DNA of 64,000 nt from Liolophura sinensis (taxonomy: Eukaryota; Mollusca; Polyplacophora; Chitonida; Chitonidae): assembly GCF_032854445.1 (NCBI RefSeq), contig NC_088302.1, positions 21,277,788 through 21,341,787 on the forward strand. Reading direction: 5' to 3'. The notes under the pieces are model-generated. The model searched no databases. It was not told where the DNA came from and was given only the letters and a program-made list of their open reading frames with translations. The position numbers and the translations under genes are program-made. The number at the start of each line of letters is the position of its first letter. Within the stretch, counting starts at the first letter, position 1. Below, one piece after another: positions 13,882-56,474 of this stretch.

Positions 13882-13920
<39 letters not shown>

Positions 13921-14683
13921 TATAGAAGAAACATGACAAACTCAACTTGTTGATTTAGCTTACTAGTTTCACCATATCATGACAGTTCTTCAGAGCTTTA
14001 TATATACATATTTATATATAAAAATCAAGCCTTATGCGAAATGGTAGTCAGAAATGTAAATATAAATCTAGGTTGGCCCATTTGCTTGAGGCTTATTTTT
14101 CAACACTGATTCAGTCAATTCATCACAAAGGTCTCCATGTAGCATGACAGTGACTTCTCCTATGAACTTCATGTAAGATAACACCAAGGCCAAGAGAACA
14201 ACTGAATCCATAGAAATCTAGAAATTTCCCAGTCCGACAAACAGACCAGTCACCCAGTGAAAGAAAATAAGCACCTCAACCATGTGGCTAGAACAGTTTC
14301 TCAGAAAATCTTACATAGCTTGCAATTCATTTGTTTATTTATCTGATTGGTGATGTACATACGACGTACTCAAAAATATTTCACTTATATGATGGCCAAA
14401 ATTATGGTGAGAAGAAACCAGGTCGAGCCATGACCATCTACATGTTGCAGGCAGACTTTCCCACGTATGGCCAGAGAGGAAGCCAGCATAAGCTGGACTT
14501 GAACTCACAGCGACTGCATTAGTGAGAGGCTCCAGAGACATTGCACCACGTTGGCATGCTAACCATCCATGAAACGCAATAACTTATTACATAAAAATAA
14601 CATGATTGTATTTAGGTTTTCTGCCAAGCATACTTACTGCCCTCAGGGATCTTCACAATCTGATTGGCCTCAATGGTCTTCAT
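11087..14683 (-). CDS. RPL9: Ribosomal protein L9 (uL6), four coding exons
   Basis: RPL9 is a component of the large cytosolic ribosomal subunit. Coding exons on the minus strand are 14683-14638 (residues 1-15), 13799-13594 (16-84), 11866-11653 (85-155) and 11187-11087 with TGA at 11089-11087. All junctions are GT-AG and frames join cleanly to 188 aa, close to the 192 aa of human RPL9. Matches to the family include the start [68 protein letters not shown] and [15 protein letters not shown] strong pyrimidine tract and CAG lie 2 nt before the ATG, so the 5' UTR continues in an upstream non-coding exon, as in other animals. Exon 1 lies 62 bp inside the block duplicated across the gap and therefore recurs at 35346-35301. 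The gene is head to head with YIPF5. Confidence 0.97.
13200..13400 (-). mobile_element. Degenerate SINE M1 copy in an RPL9 intron
   Basis: Order and spacing follow the M1 family on the minus strand: TATTTAACTGATTG tail, GTGCTCAAGACTATTTCA, GGCATGGTCAAG, GGTAAACCATCGACATCTG. Many substitutions and a short insertion show that it is an old copy. It lies in the intron between RPL9 coding exons 2 and 3. Confidence 0.5.
13886..13920. repeat. TA microsatellite in RPL9 intron 1
   Basis: A TA run of about 17 dinucleotides in the intron between RPL9 coding exons 1 and 2. Confidence 0.9.
14325..14575 (-). mobile_element. Near full-length tRNA-derived SINE, family M1
   Basis: On the minus strand the order is a tRNA-like head with GGTTAGCATGC (A-box side) and GTGAGTTCAAGTCCAGC (B-box side), then a body with CATACGTGGGAAAGTCTG, TAAGTGAAATATTT and TTGAGTACGTCG, and a tail of AAATAAACAAATG type. 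This is the most complete M1 copy in the window. Its head end (14575) abuts the point where the second contig copy begins (14576 = 35239), so the contig break coincides with this repeat. Confidence 0.8.
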
Positions 14684-16134
14684 AACTGTGAATAAGACAG
14701 AAACAGAAAATAAAAATATAGTGTACACAACACAACAAAGGCTAACGAGACTCGAAAGGTGGTAACCATCATGTGTAGCACTGCTTTTGTTGTTATACTT
14801 TTGAAAATTCTGCTGCTGCATTTAAATTATATTGCAGAATACAAAAGCTCTGAATGATGTAGTTATTTTATTGTGGTTTAAAACCATAACGATACTCAAG
14901 AGTTGTAGTGCCAAATCTGCCTTAAATTCTGGTTGATCCACAAAGCGAATACACAGCATTGCATTTATTTTTTTTTCACTATACAAAATATAGGTTCACA
15001 GGTGAAGACTTGAAGTCCTTGTAAAAAACCATGTACCGCCTTTCGAACAGTATGAGGATTTCACGTGACCAGTTCAGACAAGGTAAATGTCAGCCATCTT
15101 TGTCATGAGAAATCATACTTCGTCAGGTTGCCATTAGTATTTATTGATTTCTTCAGTGTTAAAGGCCATCCTCCGGACAGCAGTCAGGCTTCTGGATGGA
15201 GGAAACTGGAGTAGTCAGAGTAAGCCACTTTTTTTTGCGAGTTATGGAACAAACTCAATCTCATGCCCTTTGACCTAATGATATCACGCTGGAGTATTAA
15301 AAAAGGATCTGGCGAGATCTGTACACTACGTAGCATGAAGGGCTGGAGATAGTTTGGACGACGTCAAGTGAGGCAGACAAAAATATTCAGCGATCAATCA
15401 ATCTTGACAAGGTGAAAGCTGTACCTCTGGTAAGTGAAGTAACTGTAGACGGTTGAAAAGCACTATTATCGAACTTTCATTATGTACCAATGACAGGCCT
15501 GAGGGGGCATAAATTTCAGTTCATTTTCAGGCGCTGGCAAAACTCTACGCTTTCTTGTTTACGCACTGGTACCTAGCTTGACTTGTACCTGCCATTGTGA
15601 GCGCATAGACTGTTTATGTCACACATTCATGATTAATGACAAGAACTGCTGTCAGAAAATTCCGACTATGGAGGTCATAAGTACGAATCGAAAAATACCC
15701 AGTGATCTGGGAAGGGGCCTCTGTCAGCCGTTGTATCGTTAACATAAAAGTTAGGCTAACCTGATCGGCGAAATTATCACGTTTACAGTTGTCAACTGCC
15801 ATACTGAACTAGAATAAATTCAGTCATCAAGTCCTCCAGTTCAACCAAAACGATAAGCTCTATCTCTATAAAACGTAAGTTACCATACATAAAAATAAAC
15901 AATATGACAGGTGATTTAATAGACGCCCAGTTTTCGCGAGTTGACACTCAGTGTTTTAAAACTATTAATATTCATCATCTCCACTGTGTGATTAGGAAAA
16001 CTGCAAACTAAATGTAAAAAAGAATGTTTTGGGGTTCACTGATGAGAGTATTTGGTCGAAGTTGGGATCATTTCACAGAGATATTTGTTTGATACAACAC
16101 GTAAGTTCGTGTGCCAACCAACCTATGAGTGAAT

Positions 16135-16213
16135 GGCCACCGGAAAAGAACTCTGCTGATTTAAAGTTGAAGAACGCATGCGCAAGCAGACGCCGGAAGA
16201 GGAGTGTGACAGG
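16135..16213. promoter_or_regulatory. Candidate bidirectional promoter (RPL9 / YIPF5)
   Basis: The palindromic NRF-1-type site CGCATGCGC lies at 16175-16183 and an ETS-type CCGGAAG at 16193-16199. Both are typical of TATA-less housekeeping promoters. On the plus strand GTGACAG|GTAAAA at 16206-16218 could end a YIPF5 5' UTR exon. On the minus strand the pyrimidine tract CTTTTCCGG (start at 16148) resembles the 5' terminal oligopyrimidine start of ribosomal protein mRNAs. The core is unchanged in the second copy (about 36835-36913). Transcription start sites are inferred, not shown. Confidence 0.5.
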
Positions 16214-16609
16214 TAAAAAGCAAAACATTTTCGTACACGAGACTTTCAAGGCTTTTCATGAGGTATAGGTGTTTAGGAGATCATTCATTTTTATATCTAT
16301 GTAGTTATGTATAGTGGTTACATTGAGTATCTGCGCTACGAAATTCCAGAGCAATTTCTGAAGAAAAATTGTCACTTTACTCTCTCAGTCAGTGCCAACG
16401 TGGACGCATCATTCACTGGCTACAACAACAACCAAACAACTATTTTCCATCATGGCCTAAGCTAGTTAGCAGACTGTACAGGGGTCTGTCAATCTGAGAT
16501 TGATGCCGGTTGTTTCTTCTCAGATCTGCTTCTCAGATGTTCATATGAAAAGTAGATACTCTATGTCACAGGATGTACATAGCAACCCCAAGCTGCAGTT
16601 TTAACTTGG

Positions 16610-18296: not shown

Positions 18297-19593
18297 TGAA
18301 ACTTAGTTCCATTGATCAGCACCATGTCTGGGTTCGGCCAAAATGATGGATTCTACCAGGGAAATTTCTATGAGCAGCAGTCAGCTGGCTATGACATGGG
18401 TCCAGGGGGCCAACAGTTTGGAGGGGAGCAGTAAGTACGGCCAATCCAACAGTAGGCATGTCTTAATCAGTTGCTCCTTCAGTTCATAGTTGTTTTCTTG
18501 AGGCAAAGGCCTTAAAATTGCGGGTGTACAATATTCAACTTTGCCTAACCTTTTTCCCTAAAGACATAGATGATCACAGCTACATAATGTCTCACAGAGC
18601 ACTACAAGTGACCTTTTTACAATGATCGTAGCATTAACTCTCCCCCCGCCCCAGCCTCTCACTCATTGCTTGTGGGGGTGTTGTGCCACACTTCTCATGT
18701 GACTATCAGCACAGTCCAATATCTTCCACCAAAATGGTGTGTATATCTATATGTCTAATGTGAGAAAGTTTGTCAGTAACTTGCCAAAGGTTAGCTGTTC
18801 ACCCAGGGCACTGTTTTCCTCCAAAAAGTAAAACTGACCACAATCATAGAAGTGATAAATTTCAAGTATGGTGTTAACAACAGTCTAATGAAAAAACAAA
18901 TAAATAATAAGTACTATGACAACACATGTGAAATACATAATTTGATTGTGCATTGAAGATACTCATTGCCATGGTAATTACAATAAACATACTCTGAATT
19001 ACTGTAGGGAAAGAAAACCAACGACGTGTGTAAGAATGTATATGTTCTGCATTATTACAGACAGTTTGCCCAGTTTGACTATTCTCAAACAGCCCAGGGG
19101 TACGGGGACAGTGGAGCATATTACGCTGGTCAGCAGTCCTACATGGGCTCTATCCTCACCCCTGATGCCTCCCAGTTTGCTCAGGGCCCGGGCACAGAGA
19201 ACTTTGACGAGGAACCACCTCTGATGGAAGGTAGGAGGCTAAACTTTGGATGCAAATACATTTTTTAAAACAATAATATAGAAAATGGCTGTTATAAAAA
19301 GTTTGTTTCAACTTCATACATCATTCTTATGTTCTTGTAGTCCCCACCATAATTCTGCTGCTGTCTTTTAAATGAAATGTTCTTGAGTATGGCATAAAAC
19401 ACCAATGAAATAAATAAATAAATATTGTTGTAGCCCCATCATGCCTCAAAGATAATCATAGCCTTTCTGTAGGTGTACAGTTTTTAATTTTTTAAATTTT
19501 TCTTTAATTCAACCTTTATCAGTATAATGTTTGACGTGACTAATGAATTTGTTTTCAGAACTAGGAATAAATTTTGATCACATCATCCAAAAG
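18297..19593 (+). CDS. YIPF5: YIPF5 (Yip1A) N-terminal exons 1-3, copy A, partial
   Basis: YIPF5 is a multi-pass Golgi/ER membrane protein of the YIP1 family that acts in ER-Golgi transport. Coding exons are 18324-18430, 19061-19230 and 19559-19593 (312 nt, 104 codons), all with GT-AG borders and compatible phases. A 5' UTR acceptor (TCTTCCAG) is at 18289-18296. The start MSGFGQNDGFYQ, a Gln/Tyr/Gly-rich cytosolic region and the family signature [21 protein letters not shown] (split over exons 2 and 3) identify it. Only the cytosolic N-terminus is present; the exons for the membrane domain were not found in the remaining sequence up to 64000. Residue 21 is Ala here and Ser in copy B. Confidence 0.9.
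19340..19428 (+). mobile_element. SINE M1 3' fragment in YIPF5 intron 2
   Basis: CACCATAATTCTGCTG, TTCTTGAGTATGGCATAAAACACC and an (AAAT)n tail match the 3' half of family M1. The same fragment is at about 40245-40330 in copy B. Confidence 0.75.
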
Positions 19594-22420
19594 GTAGGAC
19601 CTTGCTTTGTTGTGTATAATAGTGGATCTGGTACTACATATGTTTTGCAATGCTACTCAAGAAATAGTGATTGCACTCTTTTTCAAGGGAGATAACCCAC
19701 TGTGTGTGTGTTTGAATGGTTGGCTATTTCCCCTTGACAGATGAAGCCACTAGAAAGGATTCTTTTGGCTTTTAATATCAATAACAGGGAATGGTTGTCA
19801 GCATAATTTAAGAACAAAAGTTAACCATTGTGTATTTTCACTGCGGTTAATTATATACATTCTTGAAATAATGTATAAATTCTTTCTCTACAGGAAAGTA
19901 TTTCAGTTGATCAGACAAAATTCATTGTAAATGGTTTCAGACATCTGTGTCATATGTTCTGATGAGCAGGGTATTAGTTTGAATCAGAAATTTATCATGT
20001 GAAGCTGTGTTTAGCCCTAAGAATGTTGATATGTGTGTCACAATATTAGATTGATAATTAAATCAGAATTCTTTTATTTTGTGAATGCTTCCTTATACTT
20101 TTTGCAGGTATAAACTTGGAGCTCTTTACTTGTGTGTTAAAAATGTGATAACAAACTTGCAGTGTTTTATCAAACAACCTTCACAATGGCTGTCGTTGCC
20201 CATTTGGCTGAATTACCAATTTTGAAGTTCAAATCCAACTCTTGCTGGTTTGTCTGCAGGTATAAGTCAGTGAGTTTGTCAGGTATCTGGGGAAGTATTG
20301 TGGTTTACAATGAACACTCCAGTTTCTGTCACTCATAAATCTGACAGCCATCATGAAAGTTAAAACTTCTTGAGTACAGATTAAATTCTAATTAAATCAT
20401 TCACAGCATATAGAGTGTACCAGAAGTATTTGATGTTCCATTGCTCGTCATGCTGTGCCTTAATTTGTCAAGTACCCTTTTCACTGCAAGTTATAGTATA
20501 CTCACTTTCACTTTCATATGCTCTCCCTAGCTCGGTATGTGAACCTAATGTTAGTAGTATCAGTAAAATAAGTTTAGTCTTTTGTAAATGAAGTAAAAGC
20601 TCATAATAATTCATAAATACATTAAATTAGGTCTTGTAACTGACACTATAGTTCAGGCTGATTTCCCCCAGTTCTTGTACCTGTGTTGAACATTGTGTTG
20701 AAATTCGCTGACCCAGGGATTGTTGTGCGGCAAGTCGCAGCTGTGTTCCACTTCAGCTAGACGTGTCCTAACCCAGAACCCCATGCAGATATCTTCTGTA
20801 TGGCTTCATATAACCATGGCAACGCCTGATTCACCTTAAAAATTTCAATTATATTGTGCAGGTATGAGACATATGTCCTAGGTCTATGATCATTTACCCA
20901 TTTTCCCTTCCCGATGTGGTACCATTCCTTCTGACTTCTAATTATTTCCTCTTCCTCAGACTCTACAGTTTCATATTTATCACTCTGAATTCGGACATGT
21001 CTTTCATCACAATTACATACTGGTACACATGCATGTAGTTGATATTTATCTGTATTTTAGATGTTAGATAATTATGCACTTCGCTGCACTACCTTTATAA
21101 CAGTATTTGTGTAGTTGCATTAAGTACACTTATTTGTCTTTTTTTCTTTTTACTTTTTTTGTTCTGCAGTGACTTGGTAAGTTTGATGTCTTTTAGGTGC
21201 ATATGGTAAATTACAGACTGTAACATTAGGCGTGAAATGGCATGTTTTTGTATGTACATATCAGTGATGACAGGACCACCCAGACATGATGTACATGTAG
21301 TTTTCAGTGGACCTGGAGGGGTAGGGGACTCACTTTATGTCCCCCCCCCCCACCCACCCGTCATCCTCATATGCTCCCCTAATCTACTCTCCAGACCAGT
21401 CCGCCTATCTGAGCTGGCTTCCCCCAAGACCCCCTGGGGCCCATTCCCGTGTTTACCTTGTCTAATGCCCATAACCTTTATGACTACTTATTGCAGACTC
21501 AGCCATATGTACCACCCATGTGGTCATAAGCTTGTCTGCATGAGTGAAGAAAAAGTAAAGATCATCATTTTAACATATACTGCGCCATATACTGTCCAGG
21601 GTTCAATTCTTCAAAGCAGCCGGAAGTGATGGGAATATCAGTTGTACAGTATTAAAAATGTAAAATACCCAAAAATTCATTCATTGCTAATCTGCTTATT
21701 TTGAGGTTTGTTTGGAAGGTAGGATGATATCCAACTTTTTAAATGTAAGTTTTAGCACCAAAAGTAATATTTTACAACATTTATTTGCCTCTTAAAAACG
21801 CCATATTTGGGCAGAAATTTTAAGTCATTTACAGACTATGCTGTTGCTTTAACCTGGATATAAAGTTGTTTTTAATTAAGACTGTATTACATTTACGTGT
21901 TAAAGTTTAGCCCCTTCTGAAGTTGTAAAAACGGGAGTTAAACTCAGTTTTATTTTTCAAGCTTGTTTAATATTGATCCACTGATTCCTCTGCAAAAATT
22001 GCGTTGAACACTGATGTACGCATGTAATGTCAGTGTACATCTATGAAATTTTATACAAACATCATTTGATTAATCTGCAGTTATCAGATTACTGTCACAG
22101 TTGGGACAAGTTGGCATTTGCAGGCTTTCCTAGTTTCACCCAGCATGTTTTATGTGTGGGACTGATGTTATCAGGGATGTTTTTTATGCATTTGATGCTG
22201 GCTGTTTTCATTTAGATCATCAGTTTACTGTGGACTTGACACATGTCAGGCATATCAGATTGTCAGTTGGATAGTTACATGTACATATATCCAGTATGTG
22301 AAGTACATTTACTCTCTGAGATGCACCTATTGCCTTCTCTCCGCAAAACAAACGATGACCACATAACTGAAAAGCTCTTGTTGAAAAGTAAATGAAATAA
22401 GATAGCCAGTAAATCAGAAT

Positions 22421-26579: not shown

Positions 26580-27212
26580 ACTGTCATAACACACATAGTT
26601 ACTGATCACTGGTGATACTGCTGTGCGCAAACTAGCAACTGTTCGCAGTAAAACTAGCACCAGCCACACTGCTGCACTGTAGCTGTCATTGCATGGCAGT
26701 AAACAAGCAGTAACTGTTCCTGGTTAGACTGCTGTACTTTGGTTCTTATCCTCCTTATCCTACAGGGAAACTAGCACCAGCCACGCCGCTGTGTTGTATT
26801 GTAACTGCCATCCTTCTATAGTACAGCTAGCACTAGCCACACTGTTACACTGTAACAGTCTATATATGGCAGTATTAGAACAAGCAGTTCACTCTGCAGT
26901 AAAGCCTGCACCAGCCACACCACTGTATTGTACTGTAGCTGTACTGTAACTGCTATCCAGTTGCAAGAAAAGCTAGGGCAAGCCACATCATCATATTATA
27001 GAGTGGCTGTACTGTAGTACACTGTAACTGCTATCCTTCTGCAGTGAAGGTAGCACTGGCCACTCTGCTACATTGAAACAGTTATTACGTTTCAGTAAAC
27101 AGGCAGTAACTGGTCACTGATCATACACTGATGTACTGTAACTGGCCATAAACTGGCAGAAAGTCAGCACTCATACTGCTGTACTGTAGCTGTCATCGCC
27201 TCGTAGTAAACT
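26580..27212. repeat. Degenerate repeat array in the LRR-Ig gene 3' flank, overlapping its last codons
   Basis: About eight irregular units (roughly 56-116 bp) each begin with a variant of ACTAGCACCAGCCACACTG and continue with variants of CTGCACTGTAGCTGTCAT and CAGTAAACAAGCAGTAACTG. Units start near 26580, 26651, 26768, 26824, 26901, 26969, 27046 and 27160. The last unit contains the LRR-Ig stop codon (27171-27173) and its final 12 or so codons. The 36 bp at 26670-26705 match the coding end at about 27177-27212 with five mismatches by eye. Copy B has the same array at about 47400-48032. Confidence 0.75.
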
Positions 27213-29096
27213 AATCGTCCCCACCGCAGAGTTTCGGTTCCCAGGGCTATTAGCAACTGGGTCTCGCGACCCATAGGTGTAAAGCCTGGGTGGCTTTTTA
27301 GGTGGGGTTAGGCCAAGACTGCCCATTGAGCAACTTTTCTGTGGTTGGAGGTGTCTGTGCTGAGGTGGGGTGGAGCAATATGACGGGGTGCGGGACGGTG
27401 GCCTGTTGTGCTGGGGGTGCAGTGGAATGGTAGTAAAGTCGGCCGACTCATTCAGGGGGTCCACATGGTACACTTGCCTTGGGGGTACAATGTGGTATGG
27501 GGCAAGTAAAGGGGACATGGTCTCTTTATAGGACCCTGTCACTGAACCCGCCACAGAGCCATTGTAGCGTCTTTTGGGGATACTGGCATAAAGCATGGCC
27601 AAGTCCTCGGGGTCTGAGGGCTCAGATTTAAATGATATATACGTAGAAGTGTTCAGACTGTTACGATACTGCACATTTCGGTCCCGTATGGAATCGTATA
27701 GGGGATCTACTGTGTCCATTTTGTTACATTCCTTCATCATGTCTTCGTCGATGTCATCAGGCTTTTCCCCATCCTGTAGCTCTCTGTCATGAGGGCTCTC
27801 TGCCTTCATCTCCACCCCATAGTGAGGGGGCGGGGTGCGGCGACGGTAAATCATCACACACACAATGACAGTTAAAGCCAGCGTAAACACCAAGCTACCT
27901 ACCACAATGGCCGTGATAGTTACAATGTTCAACTTGGTCTCCACCACAGCCTGTTCTACAGGGCGGACGTCATCAGGATTCACGCCCTCAATAGCGATGT
28001 GAAAGGTAACGTTCCTCGCCCCAGCGGGGTTAACGGCGTTACATATGTAGGACCCCATGTCCCTTACCTGGAAGTTGTAGACGTATAAGGTGTTGCGCAG
28101 GTGGACCCCGCCTTCATTGATAACCTTGTACTTGGTGGAGCCCTCGATCTCCAGTTGTTTGCCGTTGAGGTACCAAAACACTGTGGCTGGCGGGTCAGCA
28201 CTCACCTCACAAGTCAGCTCTGCGTTGTCCGTCTCCTCCAGCTCAATTCTTTGACTACGCGACAGAATGTGAACAGGGCACACGAAGAAGGAGTCTGGAA
28301 CTTCAGAGAAGGCTTTCCCCTCCACAAGCCAGGGGCTGTGGCACATAGGACGTGCCAGGTCAAACTCCCAGTGGAGTGTGTTGTTTTCTGCCATTGTGAT
28401 TAGCCAGAGCTTAAGCCACCTTAATGAGCAGTCACAGTGCCAAGGGTTCTTGTGCAGTTTAATGGCAAGGAATTCTTTTCCAAATGATTGGACGATCTGA
28501 GGATCAAGTTTACGCAGGAGGTTATTCTGAAGCTCCAACCAGCGCAGCGACTTCAAACCTAGAAAGCCTTTCGGGGCAATGGCGTGCAGTTTATTGTTGG
28601 TCAGGTACAAATTTTGCAGTTGGCCCAAGTGCCGAAAAGCATCGTCCCCGATGTAACTTATTTCATTATAGTTGAGAATAAGGTGTTGCAGCTTAGGCGT
28701 GTGTTTAAAGGCGCTTGAAGGGAAATCCTTCAGCATGTTCTCACTTAGGTCGAGCCAAATCAGTGAAGAACATCCCTGGAAGGCCTTGTCGTTGATGCTG
28801 TTTATCGAATTATTCTGCATCCACAGCTCCTCCATGAAGGTGAACTTGAAGAACGGGGTACCTTTTAACTTCATAAGGTTGTTATCCTCCAAATGAAACA
28901 TGCGGATTGTGTGTGGCAGATCCCAGGGTACGAATTCCAACCCCTTGTTCTTACAGTCCGCTACGAATATCCCACTGGTAATAGGGCATGCATAGCCCCT
29001 CACTAGTGCCACAGTCGCACACAAACACAACATGCAACTCCACAGGATGTCCAAGACATTCCGAGAATTCAGATTTACACAGCTCACTGCCATCAT
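27171..29096 (-). CDS. LRR-Ig single-pass membrane protein (kekkon/LRRC24-like), copy A
   Basis: Intronless CDS of 641 aa. An N-terminal hydrophobic signal region (about 13-33) is followed by a cysteine LRR N-cap (C37, C48), six LRRs (about 65-215), an LRR C-cap with NPWHCDC (217-223) and C252/C273, one Ig domain (C296, W308, DMGSYIC ending at C352), a transmembrane helix (about 390-416) followed by YRRR, and a 220-residue cytoplasmic tail. The tail has YDSI and YASI (YxxPhi type), a PKKPPR SH3-type motif (599-604) and ends in STAV, a class I PDZ ligand. The order matches the kekkon/LRRC24/AMIGO-like cell-surface group; which one is not decidable by eye. The first in-frame ATG is 29096; 29099 is TTG. 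The second ATG (29093) has the better context (A at -3, G at +4). The gene is antisense within the presumed YIPF5 intron 3. Confidence 0.92.
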   Translation of the reverse strand: MMAVSCVNLNSRNVLDILWSCMLCLCATVALVRGYACPITSGIFVADCKNKGLEFVPWDLPHTIRMFHLEDNNLMKLKGTPFFKFTFMEELWMQNNSINSINDKAFQGCSSLIWLDLSENMLKDFPSSAFKHTPKLQHLILNYNEISYIGDDAFRHLGQLQNLYLTNNKLHAIAPKGFLGLKSLRWLELQNNLLRKLDPQIVQSFGKEFLAIKLHKNPWHCDCSLRWLKLWLITMAENNTLHWEFDLARPMCHSPWLVEGKAFSEVPDSFFVCPVHILSRSQRIELEETDNAELTCEVSADPPATVFWYLNGKQLEIEGSTKYKVINEGGVHLRNTLYVYNFQVRDMGSYICNAVNPAGARNVTFHIAIEGVNPDDVRPVEQAVVETKLNIVTITAIVVGSLVFTLALTVIVCVMIYRRRTPPPHYGVEMKAESPHDRELQDGEKPDDIDEDMMKECNKMDTVDPLYDSIRDRNVQYRNSLNTSTYISFKSEPSDPEDLAMLYASIPKRRYNGSVAGSVTGSYKETMSPLLAPYHIVPPRQVYHVDPLNESADFTTIPLHPQHNRPPSRTPSYCSTPPQHRHLQPQKSCSMGSLGLTPPKKPPRLYTYGSRDPVANSPGNRNSAVGTISLLRGDDSYSTAV

Positions 29097-29119
29097 CAAG
29101 ATGAAGCAGAGTCGACCAT
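29096..29119 (-). promoter_or_regulatory. Upstream ORF (7 codons) overlapping the LRR-Ig start as TGATG
   Basis: An ATG at 29119-29117 opens a seven-codon frame (MVDSASS) whose TGA at 29098-29096 shares its A with the main ATG. A plausible acceptor (TTTCTTTAG at about 29144-29136) would start the coding exon at 29135, placing this uORF in the 39-nt leader. A TGATG overlap is the classic arrangement for termination-coupled reinitiation. It is identical in copy B (49939-49916). Confidence 0.6.
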
Positions 29120-31160
29120 GAAGAATGCTGGGTCCCTAAAGAAACAGTTTCTGCACACACACACTCCGGATAGGGTAATGGAATCTTGCACTCCAGCCAC
29201 CGTAATTCACCTTGGCAATTGCCAGCTTTGTACACGGAAATGTTGAGGCCCTCAGTTTGGGAATGCTGCTGGGAGATTTTGATCAATAGCGTCCTAATTC
29301 TGTGGCCATGAGCTGGTACTGGTCACTGCCGTATCGATGGACGGTGACACATTGGGCTAGGGGTGCCACGCAAACTTCATCCCTCACCATTTCTCTACCA
29401 CTCCACTCGGTCACCATGGAAACACCCGCGACTTCAGCACATGACAGTTTTCTGTAATGAAAGAATTGTGAAATCAGTGACAGGCATGTTAATCTTTGTC
29501 ATTGTCTGGAATCTGAGTAATGATTCATCAGGGCCTTTCCCTCTGTACAATATTCTACATGTGTCAACAAAATTCCTTAATCTGAAATCTGAGTGTTTTT
29601 TTTCTCTCTCTTTACAGACTAATTATAATAGCAGAGAAATCAACTTTGCTGGAATACATTGAATTCTTCAACAGAACTGTATGAGATAATACTATGCATA
29701 AATTTTATTTTTGTAAAATTATTCATATCGGTATATTCCATACTTGTCATCTCACAATTTTGTGGGGTGTCTCGCGCATGTTTTTTTTTTTTTAATTAAA
29801 AATCAGGTTCTTAGTGTGTTAAATCTCCCTTTTATAGGGCAAAAATGTTTCAATGTTTTGGGATGTTTTCATCTCGTGTAACGGTAAATTATGAGTAAAC
29901 TCACTAGCAAAAACTTCCAAAATACAGTTAAAAAGACACAAAAGTTATTACAGTACGGCTCTGGTTCACTTGAGTGGTGATGAGGGTGTTCTGAGTATCA
30001 ATAGTTAACCTTAGTTGGGAGGTTAAGTGGGCAGGATGGGGTGGGGGGGGGGTAGAAATGCACTCAGATAAGCATTTATACAATTCAAGGTCCGACCATT
30101 CCTCAAATATACATGCTACAGATTGTTGCCACTGCTATTGATATCGTACGCACACAGCAGATCACCCAGACAATCTCACAAAAGCTTTGGCGAAATCATC
30201 AATTAGCTGGGAGGGATGTGAAGATTTCAGCAATAAGCCTGGCCCAGCTGTTTGGTCGAATGGAGCACCACTGGTGTTCGCCAATGCAGCCTTTGGGTCA
30301 GCTGGATTAACGCTATGGATCGAAGATCAAGAGATGATAGGAATTTTCAGGCAGTAATCATTTATTACAACTGAAACAAATACTTGTCCACACATGAAAT
30401 AATAATTCTTGTATATCCAGGTGAATAATTTTCATAATTCATACAGTGCTGAAATAGTAGACAGTATATGGCGTATAATACCAGTCAAATGTATAGAAAG
30501 TGAAAGTAAATTGAAGTGAAAGGAAGGGAAAGTTTCATGAAAGCAACACATTCAGCCTCATATGTTATGAACAAAAATATTTATTATTATTATTATGTGT
30601 ACTGTTCCAGATAATATTTGTGTAGTGAATATAAAGACAGTATTGTGAAATCTGTTATTTATTGAATAAAAAATGCTTTAAAATAACTTTTTTTTTTTTG
30701 TGGTTGCTTGATGAGAATGGTCTTGTGAATTAAAACACTTCCAAGACAGAATGGATCCACATAGCGTAATGCTAAATGTCAGTACATTTGTACATGTAAA
30801 GCAGCTATTTAATGTGCAAACAGGTAATTACACACATGTATTTAAGTGAAGTCCCTGCATAAAACAATCATGAATATCACTATCAGGTTTGTTTTGATCC
30901 AGACTTATTTTCAGAATACCGGTAGCAGTAGTAATAGCAACACAGAAAAATCATAGTTAAAAAGTTAGATTGTCAGGATTTATCATTGGTTGAATGCAGA
31001 AAAACCACCGAACTAGGGATTGTAAAGTTTACGTTGCTGAAATTATTTATTCACCTAAGCTTCATAGATGTTCATTATGAACAGCAGATTCCTCCACGAA
31101 CTCGCCCCATATCATCCACCATGTGACCGAAACAGCAACCTGAACCTTACAGCCCCTGCA

Positions 31161-31699: not shown

Positions 31700-33159
31700 C
31701 ACATGGTTTCTGCTGACACCCATCACAGTTACATCTAGCTACATACAGAAAACTCTACCTGCTTGTTTGATTAGTAACATGTCCTCACTTTACCAGCACA
31801 TAAGGTCATCTTCAGTGTCCAGCTGACCACACTGTCTTGAGACTGCCTCATATGGTCAGTTTTGTCCAACCAGTGACATGTGTTTGTGTCGGCTTGGTCT
31901 ACTGAGTTACTAGAAACCTAATCCCATGAGAGGCTTCTGGATAAATCACAGCTTCACACCCCACATGCTTTGTTTTGGGTCCAGTCCGCTCATATTTTCC
32001 TTGCCATGTTATCCTGATGGACTGGCCTGATCAGGCTGAGTTTGTTATGTTAATAAGTTGTTAGGAAGGGATGGTGAGGGTATAGGGTAGGGGGGTGAGG
32101 TATCAGCAGGGTGTGTGCTTCAGTCAGACAGGTGGTGTGGTCAGCTCAGCAGAAAATGACATGATAATGAGTATTGACCAGTGGTCAAGACTAAGGTCGG
32201 CTTATACATACAATCCTCAGTGCTGGAGACAGAGAATATGGGATACTTTAGCCTCATACAGCAGCCCTGCCTTTGTACATGTAGGCTAGCTACAAAGGCA
32301 GTGATATTTACATCACAATGTACAGAGTAATCTTAGTAGCTGATACCAGCACAACTGCTCTTAGGACTGTGCTTTTGTTGTGGAATGCTCTTTTTCTGTT
32401 TCTCCATCAAAGTAAAATAACAATGGGCACAGGGAAACATTGTTCCTCCCTAGCCATTCTCCAATCTACTACATGCACCAGTGCCAGTGATGACAATGGT
32501 ATCTGTTGTAGACGGTAATTGTAGTCAGTTTAGCCTATATGAAGGCTAATCATTGCAGAGGCCTGTGAGGAGGCGGCCAGAATGGAGCCTGGTCAGATTT
32601 CATTAACAGGCTTATAAGTCCCCATGCTAATAAACAGACAAAGTGTGATCTGGTGGGGATGGCTAACTAAAGAGTGGGCAGCTGGGACTGGCTTCTGTTC
32701 TGATAACAGTTTGTGAGAAAATCAGTCTTTCTGTGACATTTGTCCATGTATCATATACCAATAATAATCCCTATGAGCTCACATGACAAACACCACTCAT
32801 TGGGCCATGCTCTGGGGGTGTTTTCATATACACATCAATAACAGATGCTTCTGGAGAAGCTTTCTCCAATGCAGTGCTCTGAATCCTTGTGTGTACTGTT
32901 GTCATTATTTATATAACTTGTTATTGTAGGCTTTATCATGGCTGTTTGATGCATGGGATACATCATGTTTCATGTATGTGTCTCATTTTCAAACGCAGTA
33001 TGGTACGCCTTGGTCGATTATGGATTCAGTCTAATATAAAGTGATGTTTTTTTGGGGGGGGGGGGGAGGGGGGGAATTTTGCAGTAAGAAGCTAAGAGCT
33101 TGTGCCCAAAGTCCACTAATCTGTACGTAAGGTTTTGAAAGTTTCAGGCCCTTGCTGAG

Positions 33160-35238: not shown

Positions 35239-35300
35239 GCAATAACTTATTACATAAAAATAACATGATTGTATTTAGGTTTTCTGCCAAGCATACTTAC

Positions 35301-38225: not shown

Positions 38226-38622
38226 TTTAGTCCGAGATTATTCTGGCGTAAGGTTTGCCAAAATATTGTTTGGCCAAGGATGGCCCCAAACCAACGTCAG
38301 AGCGTGTCTCATTTGAAAACCTTATAGAGTTACCTGCCCTTGTCAAATATGTACAGACTGTCAGTACGAGTGGCTTTGAGCATCAGCAAGGAATCTTTGG
38401 CCCATGTGGTTTAGGAAATAACTAACATTGTGCTTGTGATAAATCAATGAAAATATAAGGAACTTAAGTGTGCAAACTTCAAGCAGTGGAGACATAGTTG
38501 TGTTGAATGCCACATCCACTGCATCAGGTTTTTAAATGGAGCACTCTCTGACATTGGACTGGGCCATCCTTGGCTGACCAAAATTTTGCCAAACCTAATG
38601 TCTGAGCAATCTTGGACTAGTG
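38226..38622. repeat. Foldback (inverted-repeat) element, both arms present in copy B
   Basis: Arm 1 at about 38226-38324 (TTAGTCCGAGATT, GGTTTGCCAAAAT, GGCCAAGGATGGCC, AACGTCAGAG, TTTGAAAACCTT) is the imperfect reverse complement of arm 2 at about 38524-38622. About 200 bp separate them. There is no ORF and no recognised terminal motif, so it may be a foldback-type MITE. Confidence 0.7.
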
Positions 38623-39172: not shown

Positions 39173-40497
39173 TAAAACTTAGTTCCATTGATCAGCACCA
39201 TGTCTGGGTTCGGCCAAAATGATGGATTCTACCAGGGAAATTTCTATGAGCAGCAGTCATCTGGCTATGACATGGGTCCAGGGGGCCAACAGTTTGGAGG
39301 GGAGCAGTAAGTACGACCAATCCAACAGTAGGCATGTCTTAATCAGTTGCCCATTCAGTTCATAGTTGTTTTCTTGAGGCAAAGGCCTTAAAATTGCTGG
39401 TGCACAATATTCAACTTTGCCAAACCTTTTCCCCTAAAGACATAGATGATCACAGCTACATAATGTCTCACAGGGCACTACAAGTGACCTTTTTACAATG
39501 ATCGTAGCATTAACTCTCTCCCCCCCCCCCCCTTCCACCCAGCCTCTCACCCATTGCTTGTGGGGGTGTTGTGCCACACTTCTCATGTGACTGTCAGCAC
39601 AGTCCAATATCTTCCACCAAAATGGTGTGTATATCTATATGTCTAATGTGAGAAAGTTTCTCAGTAACTTGCCAAAGGTTAGCTGTTCACCCAGGGCACT
39701 GTTTTCGTCCAAAAAGTAAAACTGACCACAATCGTAGAAGTGATAAGTTTCAAGTATGGTGTTAACAACAATCTAATGAAAAAACAAATAAATAATAAGT
39801 ACTATGGCAACACATGTGAAATACATAATTTGATTGTGCATTGAAGAAACTCATTGCCATGGTAATTACAATAAACATACTCTGAATTACTGTAGGGAAA
39901 GAAAACCAATGACGTGTGTAAGAATGTATATGTTCTGCATTATTACAGACAGTTTGCCCAGTTTGACTATTCTCAAACAGCCCAGGGGTATGGGGACAGT
40001 GGAGCATATTACGCTGGTCAGCAGTCTTACATGGGCTCTATCCTCACCCCTGATGCCTCCCAGTTCGCTCAGGGCCCGGGCACAGAGAACTTTGACGAGG
40101 AACCACCTCTGATGGAAGGTAGGAGGCTAAACTTTGGATTTAAAATACATTTTTTTCAAATACATTTTTTTAAACAATAATATAGAAAATGGCTGTTATA
40201 AAAAGTTTGTTTCAACTTCATACATCATTCTTATGTTCTTGTAGTCCCCACCATAATTCTGCTGCTGTCTTATAAATGAAATGTTCTTGAGTATGGCATA
40301 ACACACCAATGAAATAAATAAATAAATATTGTTGTAGCCCCATCATGCCTAAAAGATAATCATAGCCTTTCTGTAGGTGTACAGTTTTTAATTTTTTTCA
40401 TTTTTCTTTAATTCAACCGTTATCAGTATAATGTTTGACGTGACTAATGAATTTGTTTTCAGAACTAGGAATAAATTTTGATCACATCATCCAAAAG
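39173..40497 (+). CDS. YIPF5: YIPF5 N-terminal exons 1-3, copy B (allele), partial
   Basis: Coding exons are 39200-39306, 39949-40118 and 40463-40497, with lengths (107, 170, 35 nt), phases and splice sites identical to copy A; the 5' UTR part begins at 39173. The only amino-acid difference I see is Ser21 in place of Ala21. After exon 3 no membrane-domain exon is found through 64000, so on this haplotype intron 3 is at least 23.5 kb, or the gene is incomplete in the scaffold. Confidence 0.9.
40245..40330 (+). mobile_element. SINE M1 3' fragment, copy B of 19340-19428
   Basis: The same fragment with the same (AAAT)n tail in YIPF5 intron 2 of the second allele. Confidence 0.75.
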
Positions 40498-45668: not shown

Positions 45669-45705
<37 letters not shown>

Positions 45706-47399: not shown

Positions 47400-48032
47400 A
47401 CTGTCATAACACACATAGTTACTGATCACTGGTAATACTGCTGTGCGCAAACTAGCAACTGTTCGCAGTAAAACTAGCACCAGCCACACTGCTGCACTGT
47501 AGCTGTCATTGCATGGCAGTAAACAAGCAGTAACTGTTCCTGGTTAGACTGCTGTACTTTGGTTCTTATCCTTCTTATCCTACAGGGAAACTAGCACCAG
47601 CCACGCCGCTCTGTTGTATTGTAACTGCCATCCTTCTATAGTACAGCTAGCACTAGCCACACTGTTACACTGTAACAGTCTATATATGGCAGTATTAGAA
47701 CAAGCAGTTCACTCTGCAGTAAAGCCTGCACCAGCCACACCACTGTATTGTACTGTAGCTGTACTGTAACTGCTATCCAGTTGCAAGAAAAGCTAGGGCA
47801 AGCCACATCATCATATTATAGAGTGGCTGTACTGTAGTACACTGTAACTGCTATCCTTCTGCAGTGAAGGTAGCACTGGCCACTCTGCTACATTGAAACA
47901 GTTATTACGTTTCAGTAAACAGGCAGTAACTGGTCACTGATCATACACTGATGTACTGTAACTGGCCATAAACTGGCAGAAAGTCAGCACTCATACTGCT
48001 GTACTGTAGCTGTCATCGCCTCGTAGTAAACT
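47400..48032. repeat. Degenerate 3'-flank repeat array, copy B
   Basis: Counterpart of 26580-27212 with few differences. It again runs into the final codons of the LRR-Ig CDS. Confidence 0.75.
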
Positions 48033-49916
48033 AATCGTCCCCACCGCAGAGTTTCGGTTCCCAGGGCTATTAGCAACTGGGTCTCGCGACCCATAGGTGT
48101 AAAGCCTGGGTGGCTTTTTAGGTGGGGTTAGGCCAAGACTGCCCATTGAGCAACTTTTCTGTGGTTGGAGGTGTCTGTGCTGAGGTGGGGTGGAGCAATA
48201 TGACGGGGTGCGGGACGGTGGCCTGTTGTGCTGGGGGTGCAGTGGAATGGTAGTAAAGTCGGCCGACTCATTCAGGGGGTCCACATGGTACACTTGCCTT
48301 GGGGGTACAATGTGGTATGGGGCAAGTAAAGGGGACATGGTCTCTTTATAGGACCCTGTCACTGAACCCGCCACAGAGCCATTGTAGCGTCTTTTGGGGA
48401 TACTGGCATAAAGCATGGCCAAGTCCTCGGGCTCTGAGGGCTCAGATTTAAATGATATATACGTAGAAGTGTTCAGACTGTTACGATACTGCACATTTCG
48501 GTCCCGTATGGAATCGTATAGGGGATCTACTGTGTCCATTTTGTTACATTCTTTCATCATGTCTTCGTCGATGTCATCAGGCTTTTCCCCATCCTGTAGC
48601 TCTCTGTCATGAGGGCTCTCTGCCTTCATCTCCACCCCATAGTGAGGGGGCGGGGTGCGGCGACGGTAAATCATCACACACACAATGACAGTTAAAGCCA
48701 GCGTAAACACCAAGCTACCTACCACAATGGCCGTGATAGTTACAATGTTCAACTTGGTCTCCACCACAGCCTGTTCTACAGGGCGGACGTCATCGGGATT
48801 CACGCCCTCAATAGCGATGTGAAAGGTAACGTTCCTCGCCCCAGCGGGGTTAACAGCGTTACATATGTAGGACCCCATGTCCCTTACCTGGAAGTTGTAG
48901 ACGTATAAGGTGTTGCGCAGGTGGACCCCGCCTTCATTGATAACCTTGTACTTGGTGGAGCCCTCGATCTCCAGTTGTTTGCCGTTGAGGTACCAAAACA
49001 CTGTGGCTGGCGGGTCAGCACTCACCTCACAAGTCAGCTCTGCGTTGTCCGTCTCCTCCAGCTCAATTCTTTGACTACGCGACAGAATGTGAACAGGGCA
49101 CACGAAGAAGGAGTCTGGAACTTCAGAGAAGGCTTTCCCCTCCACAAGCCAGGGGCTGTGGCACATAGGACGTGCCAGGTCAAACTCCCAGTGGAGTGTG
49201 TTGTTTTCTGCCATTGTGATTAGCCAGAGCTTAAGCCACCTTAATGAGCAGTCACAGTGCCAATGGTTCTTGTGCAGTTTAATGGCAAGGAATTCTTTTC
49301 CAAATGATTGGACGATCTGAGGATCAAGTTTACGCAGGAGGTTATTCTGAAGCTCCAACCAGCGCAGCGACTTCAAACCTAGAAAGCCTTTCGGGGCAAT
49401 GGCGTGCAGTTTATTGTTGGTCAGGTACAAATTTTGCAGTTGGCCCAAGTGCCGAAAAGCATCGTCCCCGATGTAACTTATTTCATTATAGTTGAGAATA
49501 AGGTGTTGCAGCTTAGGCGTGTGTTTAAAGGCGCTTGAAGGGAAATCCTTCAGCATGTTCTCACTTAGGTCGAGCCAAATCAGTGAAGAACATCCCTGGA
49601 AGGCCTTGTCGTTGATGCTGTTTATCGAATTATTCTGCATCCACAGCTCCTCCATGAAGGTGAACTTGAAGAACGGGGTACCTTTTAACTTCATAAGGTT
49701 GTTATCCTCCAAATGAAACATGCGGATTGTGTGTGGCAGATCCCAGGGTACGAATTCCAACCCCTTGTTCTTACAGTCCGCTACGAATATCCCACTGGTA
49801 ATAGGGCATGCATAGCCCCTCACTAGTGCCACAGTCGCACACAAACACAACATGCAACTCCACAGGATGTCCAAGACATTCCGAGAATTCAGATTTACAC
49901 AGCTCACTGCCATCAT
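47991..49916 (-). CDS. LRR-Ig single-pass membrane protein, copy B (allele)
   Basis: It has the same 641-aa architecture as copy A: signal region, six LRRs with N- and C-caps, one Ig domain, one transmembrane helix and a tail ending STAV. Five nucleotide differences from copy A were found in the CDS by eye (48432, 48552, 48795, 48855, 49264). Two change the protein: D495E in the tail and P218H in the NPW motif of the LRR C-cap. The NPWxCDC proline is a hallmark of this cap, so His218 is unusual and may weaken folding, or may be a base error. The reading frame is intact, so both copies would be annotated as genes although they are most likely alleles. Confidence 0.92.
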   Translation of the reverse strand: MMAVSCVNLNSRNVLDILWSCMLCLCATVALVRGYACPITSGIFVADCKNKGLEFVPWDLPHTIRMFHLEDNNLMKLKGTPFFKFTFMEELWMQNNSINSINDKAFQGCSSLIWLDLSENMLKDFPSSAFKHTPKLQHLILNYNEISYIGDDAFRHLGQLQNLYLTNNKLHAIAPKGFLGLKSLRWLELQNNLLRKLDPQIVQSFGKEFLAIKLHKNHWHCDCSLRWLKLWLITMAENNTLHWEFDLARPMCHSPWLVEGKAFSEVPDSFFVCPVHILSRSQRIELEETDNAELTCEVSADPPATVFWYLNGKQLEIEGSTKYKVINEGGVHLRNTLYVYNFQVRDMGSYICNAVNPAGARNVTFHIAIEGVNPDDVRPVEQAVVETKLNIVTITAIVVGSLVFTLALTVIVCVMIYRRRTPPPHYGVEMKAESPHDRELQDGEKPDDIDEDMMKECNKMDTVDPLYDSIRDRNVQYRNSLNTSTYISFKSEPSEPEDLAMLYASIPKRRYNGSVAGSVTGSYKETMSPLLAPYHIVPPRQVYHVDPLNESADFTTIPLHPQHNRPPSRTPSYCSTPPQHRHLQPQKSCSMGSLGLTPPKKPPRLYTYGSRDPVANSPGNRNSAVGTISLLRGDDSYSTAV

Positions 49917-49939
49917 CAAGATGAAGCAGAGTCGACCAT
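49916..49939 (-). promoter_or_regulatory. Upstream ORF overlapping LRR-Ig start, copy B
   Basis: Identical to 29096-29119: seven codons ending in TGATG with the main start. Confidence 0.6.
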
Positions 49940-52900
49940 GAAGAATGCTGGGTCCCTAAAGAAACAGTTTCTGCACACACACACTCCGGATAGGGTAATG
50001 GAATCTTGCACTCCAGCCACCGTAATTCACCTTGGCAATTGCCAGCTTTGTACACGGAAATGTTGAGGCCCTCAGTTTGGGAATGCTGCTGGGAGATTTT
50101 GATCAATAGCGTCCTAATTCTGTGGCCATGAGCTGGTACTGGTCACTGCCGTATCGATGGACGGTGACACATTGGGCTAGGGGTGCCACGCAAACTTCAT
50201 CCCTCACCATTTCTCTACCACTCCACTCGGTCACCATGGAAACACCCGCGACTTCAGCACATGACAGTTTTCTGTAATGAAAGAATTGTGAAATCAGTGA
50301 CAGGCATGTTAATCTTTGTCATTGTCTGGAATCTGAGTAATGATTCATCAGGGCCTTTCCCTCTGTACAATATTCTACATGTGTCAACAAAATTCCTTAA
50401 TCTGAAATCTGAGTGTTTTTTTTCTCTCTCTTTACAGACTAATTATAATAGCAGAGAAATCAACTTTGCTGGAATACATTGAATTCTTCAACAGAACTGT
50501 ATGAGATAATACTATGCATAAATTTTATTTTTGTAAAATTATTCATATCGGTATATTCCATACTTGTCATCTCACAATTTTGTGGGGTGTCTCGCGCATG
50601 TTTTTTTTTTTTTTAATTAAAAATCAGGTTCTTAGTGTGTTAAATCTCCCTTTTATAGGGCAAAAATGTTTCAATGTTTTGGGATGTTTTCATCTCGTGT
50701 AACGGTAAATTATGAGTAAACTCACTAGCAAAAACTTCCAAAATACAGTTAAAAAGACACAAAAGTTATTACAGTACGGCTCTGGTTCACTTGAGTGGTG
50801 ATGAGGGTGTTCTGAGTATCAATAGTTAACCTTAGTTGGGAGGTTAAGTGGGCAGGATGGGGTGGGGGGGGGGTAGAAATGCACTCAGATAAGCATTTAT
50901 ACAATTCAAGGTCCGACCATTCCTCAAATATACATGCTACAGATTGTTGCCACTGCTATTGATATCGTACGCACACAGCAGATCACCCAGACAATCTCAC
51001 AAAAGCTTTGGCGAAATCATCAATTAGCTGGGAGGGATGTGAAGATTTCAGCAATAAGCCTGGCCCAGCTGTTTGGTCGAATGGAGCACCACTGGTGTTC
51101 GCCAATGCAGCCTTTGGGTCAGCTGGATTAACGCTATGGATCGAAGATCAAGAGATGATAGGAATTTTCAGGCAGTAATCATTTATTACAACTGAAACAA
51201 ATACTTGTCCACACATGAAATAATAATTCTTGTATATCCAGGTGAATAATTTTCATAATTCATACAGTGCTGAAATAGTAGACAGTATATGGCGTATAAT
51301 ACCAGTCAAATGTATAGAAAGTGAAAGTAAATTGAAGTGAAAGGAAGGGAAAGTTTCATGAAAGCAACACATTCAGCCTCATATGTTATGAACAAAAATA
51401 TTTATTATTATTATTATGTGTACTGTTCCAGATAATATTTGTGTAGTGAATATAAAGACAGTATTGTGAAATCTGTTATTTATTGAATAAAAAATGCTTT
51501 AAAATAACTTTTTTTTTTTTGTGGTTGCTTGATGAGAATGGTCTTGTGAATTAAAACACTTCCAAGACAGAATGGATCCACATAGCGTAATGCTAAATGT
51601 CAGTACATTTGTACATGTAAAGCAGCTATTTAATGTGCAAACAGGTAATTACACACATGTATTTAAGTGAAGTCCCTGCATAAAACAATCATGAATATCA
51701 CTATCAGGTTTGTTTTGATCCAGCCTTATTTTCAGAATACCGGTAGCAGTAGTAATAGCAGCACAGAAAAATCATAGTTAAAAAGTTAGATTGTCAGGAT
51801 TTATCATTGGTTGAATGCAGAAAAAACACCGAACTAGGGATCGTAAAGTTTACGTTGCTGAAATTATTTATTGACCTAAGCTTCATAGATGTATATTGTG
51901 AACAGCAGATTCCTCTATGAACTCACCCCAGATCATCCATCATGTGACCAAAACAGCAACTTGAACCTTACAGCCCCTGCAGTGGGAGTTGTAAAGACTA
52001 GGGTAATTTTATGTGTTGATTTCCACTTGCATTCTGACGTCACTTTTTTCCCCCCCATGGCCATTTGCTTTTACTGATTTTTCATTGGTTAAAATTTAAT
52101 GGGGAGATGTTCAGTTTGCATACAAAGAAGAACAGCATAAATAAGACATCCATCATTTTAGTTTCTGTCACATGTCACTGTTATATATGAGATTTTGGCA
52201 CTGTATTATTTGTGTGGTTCATACATTTTTGAAAGGGTTTCTGCAGTTTGTTGTGAAATGCTTTGGATTTGAGCTTCCATCAATCAGCAGGTTGGGTCGG
52301 AAGAAGGTTGCTTATACTTCTACCCATCTCAAGTTGATGTGCTAAAACATGTTGTTTAAACATTTTTAAGACAGATGAACATTGTAAGGGTTGATCTGAA
52401 AAGGGTCTCCTCCATTTTTGGACAGCCTCATTCAGAGAAGCATAAATGAATTGACATAAGCAGTGACGTAGAAAGTTACACACAAATATTACCCTAGTTT
52501 TTACAACTGCCGCCACATGGTTTCTGCTGACACCCATTACAGTTACATCTAGCTACATACAGAAAACTCTACCTGCTTGTTTGATTAGTAACATGTCCTC
52601 ACTTTACCAGCACATAAGGTCATCTTCAGTGTCCAGCTGACCACACTGTCTTGAGACTGCCTCATATGGTCAGTTTTGTCCACCCAGTGACATGTGTTTG
52701 TGTCGGCTTGGTCTGCTGAGTTACTAGAAACCTAATCCCATGAGAGGCTTCTGGATAAATCACAGCTTCACACCCCACATGCTTTGTTTTGGGTCCAGTC
52801 CCCTCATATTTTCCTTGCCATGTTATCCTGATGGACTGGCCTGATCGGGCTGAGTTTGTTATGTTAATAAGTTGTTAGGAAGGGATGGTGAGGGTATAGG

Positions 52901-54130: not shown

Positions 54131-54669
54131 ACTATCCCTAAACTGAGCCACCATGATAGGGGTTAACTATTATTACTACAGTATTTACTAAGTACTATGG
54201 CTGTGAACACCAAACCAAATCAATAAAACATAAATACATGCAAATTATACACAGAAGAAATTTTATTTTGAGCATACCTTTGTTTTAAACCTTTCACAAG
54301 TTCCTGAGGCTGTGGTATGTGAGAGATAATATTTGTTGAGATGTTAATTTCTCATGGAAGCCCACTTTGCCCAACGTATAAACCTGACTTCAATCTGGCT
54401 GGCATGCAAGTGAAATATTTTGGCAAACCAGATATCAAATACTGTAAATGTCTTTACATTTCTGCCAGAAAAGCACATATTTAGAGGCAAAGAAATGTCA
54501 TAAAACTGGTGTTGCAAGTTTAATTTTTCTTTTGCTATGGAACCCTACCTTTCAGACAAACCTTAAATATTTTAAATTAATTACCAGTTAAATGCTCATT
54601 TTGAATATGGCAATTTTGAATACAGTCATACAGTGTATTTGCTCAAATTAGTTCATTACCAGTTTTTAC

Positions 54670-54808
54670 CATCCTGAGCATACAGATTGTCGTGGGTTTC
54701 CCCCAAGGTCTACCTGGTTTTCCTCCCACCATAGTACTGGCCGGCCTCATACAGGTGACATATTCTTGAGAATGGCATATAACACCCATCAGATAAATAA
54801 ATAAACAA
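54670..54808 (+). mobile_element. SINE M1, copy B of 33850-33995
   Basis: The same 5'-truncated insertion; the tail carries an extra AAAT unit. Confidence 0.8.
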
Positions 54809-56474
54809 CCATGCTGAACAATGTAAGGAGTAAGGATGTAAAACATAAAAAAGTGTGTTGTACAAGGAAAAGAGGTCAAGCAATATGGCTACATGGAGGT
54901 ATTCTACATAGACAGATGGGTGTGGGCTGACATATCTGTGGGTGAACTATAGCTCAGTTTCTGATAGAAAAAGGCCTTGAGGACATTTTTACCATTCACC
55001 CTGACCGGCTGTGTTATATTGTACATGGAATCTAATTTGTGAGTGCCTTCTAGGCTTGTGGGGGCCTAACACATGGCTGTCATGTGTGTGCTGGCTGTAG
55101 TATTCCTCCTTCCTTTCTCAATATGAGAGGTCTCTGGGGCTACTGGAGGGATTCAGAATCCTCAATAACATCTTTCCTTTTTCACAAGAATCCTTTTCAC
55201 TCCCACAACTCTGTAGAGTCAATAAATGGATCGTCCCTGTTCTTCGGGATGTGCTAGTCAGAGGGGTGTCTCCAGAGAAGGGCACGTACCAATGCATGGA
55301 AGAATGAAGCAGAAATATTTACTCTGCTGCAACTTGGCTGTGCATGATGTCGTATCAAGATATTTCCATAATGATCAACATTGATGTTTAGCATTTTAAA
55401 ATTTGATTCTGCAGTTCAAACTGCAAGCCTGTCTTAATTTGCTAAACATGTAAATTGTGATATTGGTAGACAAAGATGCTGTCCTGAAGTCTGACAGTGT
55501 GCAGTAGTAGTATGCATTTTGCAAGGGTAATTGCTGTGAGGGTGAGACCTCTAAGAGCTGCATTGAGTTGAGACTTGCATGTCCAATACAAGCTTTTGTT
55601 GCAAGAGCAAATAACACTCTCCATTGACCAGTGCCCTGACCCCTGGGGCTCTGCACCCAATGGGTGGCCTGTCTCTGTATGTGTTAGCCCCTGACTCATC
55701 CTCCTTAAGACAACCCGATACCCACACGCGATAACTCCTGACAAGCCGTCACAATAACATGGCAATCAACCCGTTTGATCATCCGGTTCCAGTGTTATCT
55801 TTCCTGCGATGCACAAGCTGCAAAAAAAAAAAAAACTGCCCCAAAACTGCTTCCATTCACATTTCTACTGAACGAAATGTTGACACTGCCGTGCAATTTT
55901 GCAGGAAAACTACCTCAGATATGAATGTGAAACTCATGTACCATTGTATGTTCCCAGACAAGTTCTGTGAATTCCATATTGTAAAACCATTCAAACATTG
56001 GAATTTATCTTCGAACATTGCATCTCCAATTGTCAGCTTCCCGTATTGCACAAAACCAGGTTGGTTAGATTTTATATTCAGGTTATATTGTTGGCTTGAG
56101 GCAAATTAGTGTAGTTGTTATTACATTCACAGATATTAATTTGATCAGTGGCTAGTGGAAAGCCAAAGGAATGAAATTCAAACACTGGATTAGGGAAATG
56201 CACCAGTTGATTAGGTCACAATTACTATGTTTCACCTGAATTTTTGTTATGTTAGATACTTTCAGAAGCGCTTAAAGGCATTAAAGTGATGCTTTGTTAA
56301 CAAGTCTTTTTTGATAAGAAAATAATCAAGCTTTACATAAAACACTGAAATGATCCTATAAGGTGGAAGGTGAATCAGACACAATCAAGCAAACTCTGTC
56401 ACTTAAAAGATGCTAAATTTTAGGTGAAATACAGTATATGTTTTGCATTATTGATGAATCATTATGATTAAATT

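Follow-up and report, generated by a model that had tools for sequence, protein, structure and literature searches.

A stretch of 64,000 nucleotides from the polyplacophoran mollusc Liolophura sinensis (NC_088302.1, positions 21,277,788 to 21,341,787; hereafter the window) carries two copies, A and B, of one 20.5-kb sequence, in the same orientation on either side of a run of 200 N. The duplication is very probably an overlap of heterozygous contigs that escaped purging, a so-called heterotype false duplication, in which two alleles of one locus stand side by side at a scaffolding gap. Allele status is inferred here from sequence and published statistics: the reading is supported by the geometry of the copies, the complementary truncation of the genes RPL9 and YIPF5, flanks without a second full-length copy, patchy divergence, and the published figures for heterozygosity, coverage, and gaps. 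It had been proposed in a preliminary description of the window, and these lines of evidence speak for it; what is newly added is that the copy edges cut two genes in complementary ways. The window is located on contig C8, which is scaffold_4 of the published Liolophura assembly (PMC11068029); a later correction changed the species name from L. japonica to L. sinensis (PMC12441733). All coordinates, including those of features to the right of the window, follow window numbering.

The two copies align end to end, base 14576 pairing with base 35239 and base 35038 with base 55848. Thus, the limits first proposed (14576-55848, with A ending and B starting at the N run) prove exact. Over 20,308 aligned bases, there are 345 mismatches (1.70%) and 48 internal insertions or deletions (indels) totalling 457 gap bases, in agreement with the scattered single-nucleotide polymorphisms (SNPs) and length changes already described. 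The raw alignment output contained 49 indels and 469 gap bases, including a 12-base overhang past 55848 that was discounted. The match is far beyond chance. It reaches the end of the contig between the two gaps of the window (contig X) and the start of the following one (contig Y), as in a contig overlap of the purge_dups type, and the two same-scaffold copies are separated by exactly 200 N, which is a sign of heterotype false duplication. The window has two N runs (4481-4680 and 35039-35238), both of 200 bases, and in contig Y no further N run was found within the 60 kb beyond the right window end. The assembly is reported to have 1,110 gaps, with N making up 0.0364% (PMC11068029), from which a mean of 199.9 N per gap and a density of about one gap per 550 kb are computed. 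A 200-N run is therefore an ordinary spacer of this assembly, and the earlier view of both runs as placeholders is confirmed. If the copies are alleles, the true size of the gap at 35039-35238 is negative, about -20.5 kb.

The edges of the copies fall within two genes. RPL9, on the minus strand, has four coding exons giving a complete 188-residue protein when joined; uL6/RPL9 chains match it over residues 1-187, together with a Pfam Ribosomal_L6 match. The gene is whole only across the left edge of copy A, and copy B holds a start-exon stub. This start exon has the same splice sites in both copies. YIPF5, on the plus strand, has six exons encoding a complete protein of 255 residues with a Yip1 domain in the joined protein. 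It is whole only across the right edge of copy B, copy A having three of the six exons; exons 4-6 were each found once in a genome search with a human YIPF5 fragment. RPL9, which had not been named before, is thus cut the opposite way to YIPF5. A whole RPL9 with a YIPF5 stub on the A side, and an RPL9 stub with a whole YIPF5 on the B side, are what overlapping contigs of one locus must look like. The RPL9 start exon and the YIPF5 5' exons were named by tblastn with protein baits (the human one for YIPF5), in-frame splicing, and the joined proteins; the limits of RPL9 exons 2-4 derive from tblastn coordinates and exon lengths. When single open reading frames (ORFs) were compared with Pfam (E up to 0.1), no family was obtained for either YIPF5 5' exon ORF or for the ORFs at 20141-20335, 34443-34871, 62181-62588, and 62260-62514, and the RPL9 start-exon ORF alone gave just a chance match below the cut-off.

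Within the 312 coding bases of YIPF5 exons 1-3, copies A and B differ by three synonymous changes and one nonsynonymous change (A/S), and the splice sites at the three exons are identical. The probability of so few nonsynonymous changes is about 0.02 if both copies are unconstrained and about 0.23 if one is, from few sites. The few coding changes and the kept splice sites would fit, though with little statistical weight, a pair of working alleles. Selection on the orphan exons was set aside as deciding evidence, the sites being too few. A misoriented contig was also considered from a minus-strand Yip1 match 53 kb to the right of the window (E 0.21, below the family cut-off). It was rejected because YIPF5 exons 4-6 are on the plus strand, in order, and joined in frame.

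Among RPL9, YIPF5, and a gene encoding leucine-rich repeat and immunoglobulin domains (LRR-Ig), only the latter is duplicated whole. Its frames are open in both copies, which differ by three synonymous and two nonsynonymous changes (P/H and D/E). The preliminary description had warned that two LRR-Ig genes and two YIPF5 loci would be counted here: the two LRR-Ig copies are indeed whole, whereas the YIPF5 loci are not equal, only that of the B side being complete. Near-identical matches to the LRR-Ig protein occur at two places in the genome, each of them in the window, and the next best match is 31% identical, which led to the rejection of a local expansion of the gene. Judged by eye, the protein of this single ORF has a transmembrane segment and a long tail. 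Its top PDB sequence matches include the acid labile subunit, LRIG1, LGR4, and a LINGO-type nogo-receptor-interacting protein.

Readings in which the animal really has two copies are, taken together, quite improbable. One is a recent, perhaps copy-number-variable, tandem duplication, with a second LRR-Ig receptor gene nested in YIPF5 and the junction lost in the gap; this is also held to be highly improbable. If the unit were exactly the 20.5-kb stretch and the assembly were broken at the A/B junction, the RPL9 start exon of B and the YIPF5 exons 1-3 of A would be no more than dead stubs, and both LRR-Ig genes would work. The order left flank, A, break, B, right flank would look identical in sequence, the LRR-Ig frame is open in each copy, and the assembly has other same-scaffold duplications of 91-99% identity. 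However, the break would have to hit the junction to the base, and the probability that a randomly placed gap comes within 10 bp of it is about 4e-5 (breaks may be non-random); in addition, about 7-12 HiFi reads are expected across a homozygous junction. Moreover, no N was seen in the one junction stretch read of a direct duplication on C2, another sequence of the assembly. The putative stubs also keep the inspected splice sites and differ by one nonsynonymous against three synonymous changes in YIPF5, although this evidence is weak. An exact-unit duplication is therefore considered very unlikely. The earlier argument that nothing would make a real duplication stop at contig ends is too strong, because the limits at contig ends are the inner ones, and a larger tandem unit with a lost middle gives the same dovetail.

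Such a larger unit, possibly heterozygous, with the end of its first occurrence and the start of its second unassembled, is compatible with the geometry and yields the dovetail without coincidence; no direct observation speaks for it. It predicts a second copy to the left of 14576 and/or to the right of 55848. In whole-genome searches (609,464,459-bp assembly, 632 pieces), the left flank (11500-14700) and the right flank (55700-59500) each had one full-length place among the best 40 candidates; hence, no second full-length copy of either flank, the RPL9 side included, was found in the 609 Mb. Repeats of no more than about 665 bp make up the other flank matches listed. These flank searches score the best 40 candidates only, and unassembled sequence is invisible to them. 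With the 2-kb query 33000-35000, both copies were returned, at 100% and 97%; since the second copy was returned at 97%, a genome search is able to find such copies. The same query was used to consider whether the stretch is a repeat family, which was rejected: two near-identical places exist, both in the window, and the other 41 of 43 matches, among the best candidates scored, are short, 70-85% identical, and cover one part of the query. In addition, YIPF5 exons 4-6 appear once each, and a larger unit requires lost sequence, whereas the allele reading does not. A larger unit is considered as unlikely as an exact one.

The divergence between copies A and B, 1.70% SNPs, compares with a GenomeScope heterozygosity of 1.22-1.26% (PMC11068029), and is thus at the level of haplotypes and not of errors, as in heterotype false duplications. 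The SNPs are patchy. The density of SNPs per kb is about 3% at the left, falls to zero over 28576-30575, and is 3% again in the next kb. Counted in 500-bp bins, they have an index of dispersion of 4.96, a value that never exceeds 2.01 in 10,000 uniform simulations. The longest run without SNPs measures 2,459 bp (28444-30903), compared with a maximum of 832 under uniform placement. Coding constraint alone is insufficient to account for this run, because it reaches well beyond the LRR-Ig ORF. The pattern fits that given by recombining haplotypes. The SNP-free stretch could also suggest one haplotype assembled twice through read errors (a homotype false duplication), but this is barely conceivable, the 1.70% SNPs, the 48 indels, and a 197-bp presence/absence difference far exceeding HiFi consensus error. 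HiFi consensus accuracy is too high for such differences.

A heterozygous overlap of this kind can be understood from the way the assembly was made. The published genome consists of 632 scaffolds (609,495,693 bp), assembled from 14X HiFi data (reads of 8,347 bp on average) by hifiasm, purge_dups, and YaHS (PMC11068029). At about 7X per haplotype, a simple Lander-Waterman estimate puts the number of breaks per haplotype at about 900 to 7,700, according to how much overlap is demanded. Contig X would then represent one haplotype, running through RPL9 into the first half of YIPF5, and contig Y the other, starting inside the first coding intron of RPL9. The two contigs would be homologous over 20.5 kb and too divergent for the assembler to merge. 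With 8.3-kb reads at such coverage, an assembler that separates diverged haplotypes may end a contig on one haplotype and start the next kilobases earlier on the other. The overlap would have been left untrimmed by purge_dups, and YaHS would have placed contigs X and Y in correct order and orientation with a 200-N spacer between them. The animal would have here one RPL9, one YIPF5, and one LRR-Ig gene, with two alleles of each, and the scaffold would be about 20.7-20.8 kb too long.

Several points weigh against the allele reading. Although purge_dups was built to remove heterozygous overlaps (PMC7203741) and had been run on this assembly, the overlap persists; our guess is that low coverage blurred the cut-off between haploid and diploid sequence. 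BUSCO duplication is 0.9% for the genome and 7.4% for the proteome (PMC11068029), and the genome figure means that such duplication errors are not rampant. The divergence of the copies exceeds the genome mean (about 1.24%), and gene conversion between true paralogues is another possible source of its patchiness. Same-scaffold duplicated sequence of 91-99% identity occurs elsewhere in the assembly, on C2. Identity alone is thus no mark of alleles. The C2 duplicates are also one contrast case, with no N in the junction stretch read. Finally, the flank searches missed the 125-149 bp of each query that lie inside the duplicated stretch, and of the flanking sequence they covered only that from 11.5 kb on the left and up to 59.5 kb on the right. 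Given these missed bases and the scoring of the best 40 candidates, the searches are evidence against long second copies, not against short ones.

If the copies are two alleles, scaffold_4 loses the excess length, the LRR-Ig count at this place goes from two to one, and gene fragments built from the orphan YIPF5 or RPL9 exons vanish. Beyond this local correction of the reference, the bearing on biology is little, the artefact being of a known kind. A dovetail at contig ends that cuts two genes complementarily may nevertheless serve as a cheap, read-free audit sign for the other gaps of the assembly, about 1,100 in number. Among the papers listed in a literature search on this question, those that mention Liolophura are the genome paper and the eLife synteny paper discussed below, neither with the term false duplication; on this scope, the locus is not claimed to be unreported.

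Table 1. Positions of the contigs, copies, and genes discussed, in window numbering.
Feature	Position	Strand	Basis or remark
Contig X, 30,358 bp between both 200-N gaps	4681-35038		N runs, end-to-end alignment; last 67% is copy A
Copy A (putative haplotype 1), suffix of contig X, 20,463 bp	14576-35038	+	N runs, alignment
200-N scaffolding gap	35039-35238		N run; published N count gives 199.9 N per gap
Copy B (putative haplotype 2), prefix of contig Y, 20,610 bp	35239-55848	+	N runs, alignment
Segment of 197 bp in copy B, absent from copy A, largest indel	38207-38403	+	Alignment (placement as aligned)
RPL9 (uL6) coding exons 2-4 (13799-13594, 11866-11653, 11187-11087)	11087-13799	-	Copy A side only
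RPL9 first coding exon, copy A, spliced to exons outside the duplicated stretch	14638-14683	-	tblastn, in-frame joining
RPL9 first coding exon, copy B, orphaned at gap	35301-35346	-	tblastn; identical to copy A including near flanks
YIPF5 exons 1-3, copy A (18324-18430, 19061-19230, 19559-19593)	18324-19593	+	Orphaned, gap before exon 4
YIPF5 exons 1-3, copy B (39200-39306, 39949-40118, 40463-40497)	39200-40497	+	Leads into exons 4-6
YIPF5 exons 4-6	82750-82860, 83594-83775, 94590-94752	+	Right of window
LRR-Ig ORF, copy A	27171-29135	-	LRR and I-set domains (Pfam); antisense, between YIPF5 exons 3 and 4
LRR-Ig ORF, copy B	47991-49955	-	5 SNPs, 2 amino-acid changes relative to copy A

Several repeats occur around the duplicated stretch. 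An array of a 53-bp satellite (4681-6400) forms the left end of contig X, abutting the gap at 4481-4680, and is probably the reason why contig X breaks there. Another array, of a 77-bp unit, is found about 7 kb to the left of the window start. At 12324-12955, a dispersed repeat about 600 bp long has at least 39 other places in the genome, some partial, with 72-82% identity.

Other duplicated loci were encountered in the assembly. On C8 itself, at about 0.93-0.98 Mb, same-strand related LRR genes about 17-23 kb apart form a diverged array, the longest pairwise pieces being 91.5-94.3% identical; no N was seen in the three pieces read of this trio. On C2, at about 15.01-15.20 Mb, LRR matches lie in a patchy direct repeat, offset by about 92-93 kb, which was read at the junction and at sampled points. 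Of the eight probe pairs there, three match with an offset close to 92 kb. Runs of more than 200 N terminate two of the other pieces read, and freedom from gaps is thus not established for the entire area. This region is a candidate for a real segmental duplication. Among the C2 and C8 pairs picked by eye from LRR matches, no second dovetail artefact was found. C99 (108,685 bp) carries seven same-strand COX1 matches at a spacing of about 15.4-15.6 kb, with one match covering only 396 of the 436 model positions, and three 4.3-kb pieces of it are identical. C99 would correspond to head-to-tail mitochondrial genomes among the nuclear contigs, either as an assembly concatemer or as a real multimer. 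An eighth COX1 match is on C632, which looks like a separate mitochondrial record.

The locus can be compared with known cases of real and false duplication. At the largest scale, a 2025 eLife paper describes part of the Liolophura japonica genome as duplicated on separate pseudochromosomes (PMC12005716), a claim that is probably based on the same assembly. A local artefact of only 20 kb cannot account for it. Like the present copies, those of the C2 duplication are on the same strand of one scaffold with 91-99% identity. Unlike them, they have no N in the junction stretch (15.096-15.112 Mb), include internal inverted copies, and are patchy. The present locus resembles the heterozygous overlaps treated by purge_dups, with an end-to-start match covering 67% of the shorter contig rather than a contained haplotig (PMC7203741). 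In contrast to these, it survived a pipeline that includes purge_dups. The closest parallel is heterotype false duplication, for which a gap between a same-scaffold pair, half depth, discordant linked reads, and single-copy k-mers are the described signs (PMC9516828). Here, the assignment is made from sequence, the gap sign, and divergence. As in the published cases, alleles would stand side by side with a gap between them, leaving partial gene copies as in ZBTB11 and ADAMTS13 (PMC9516828).

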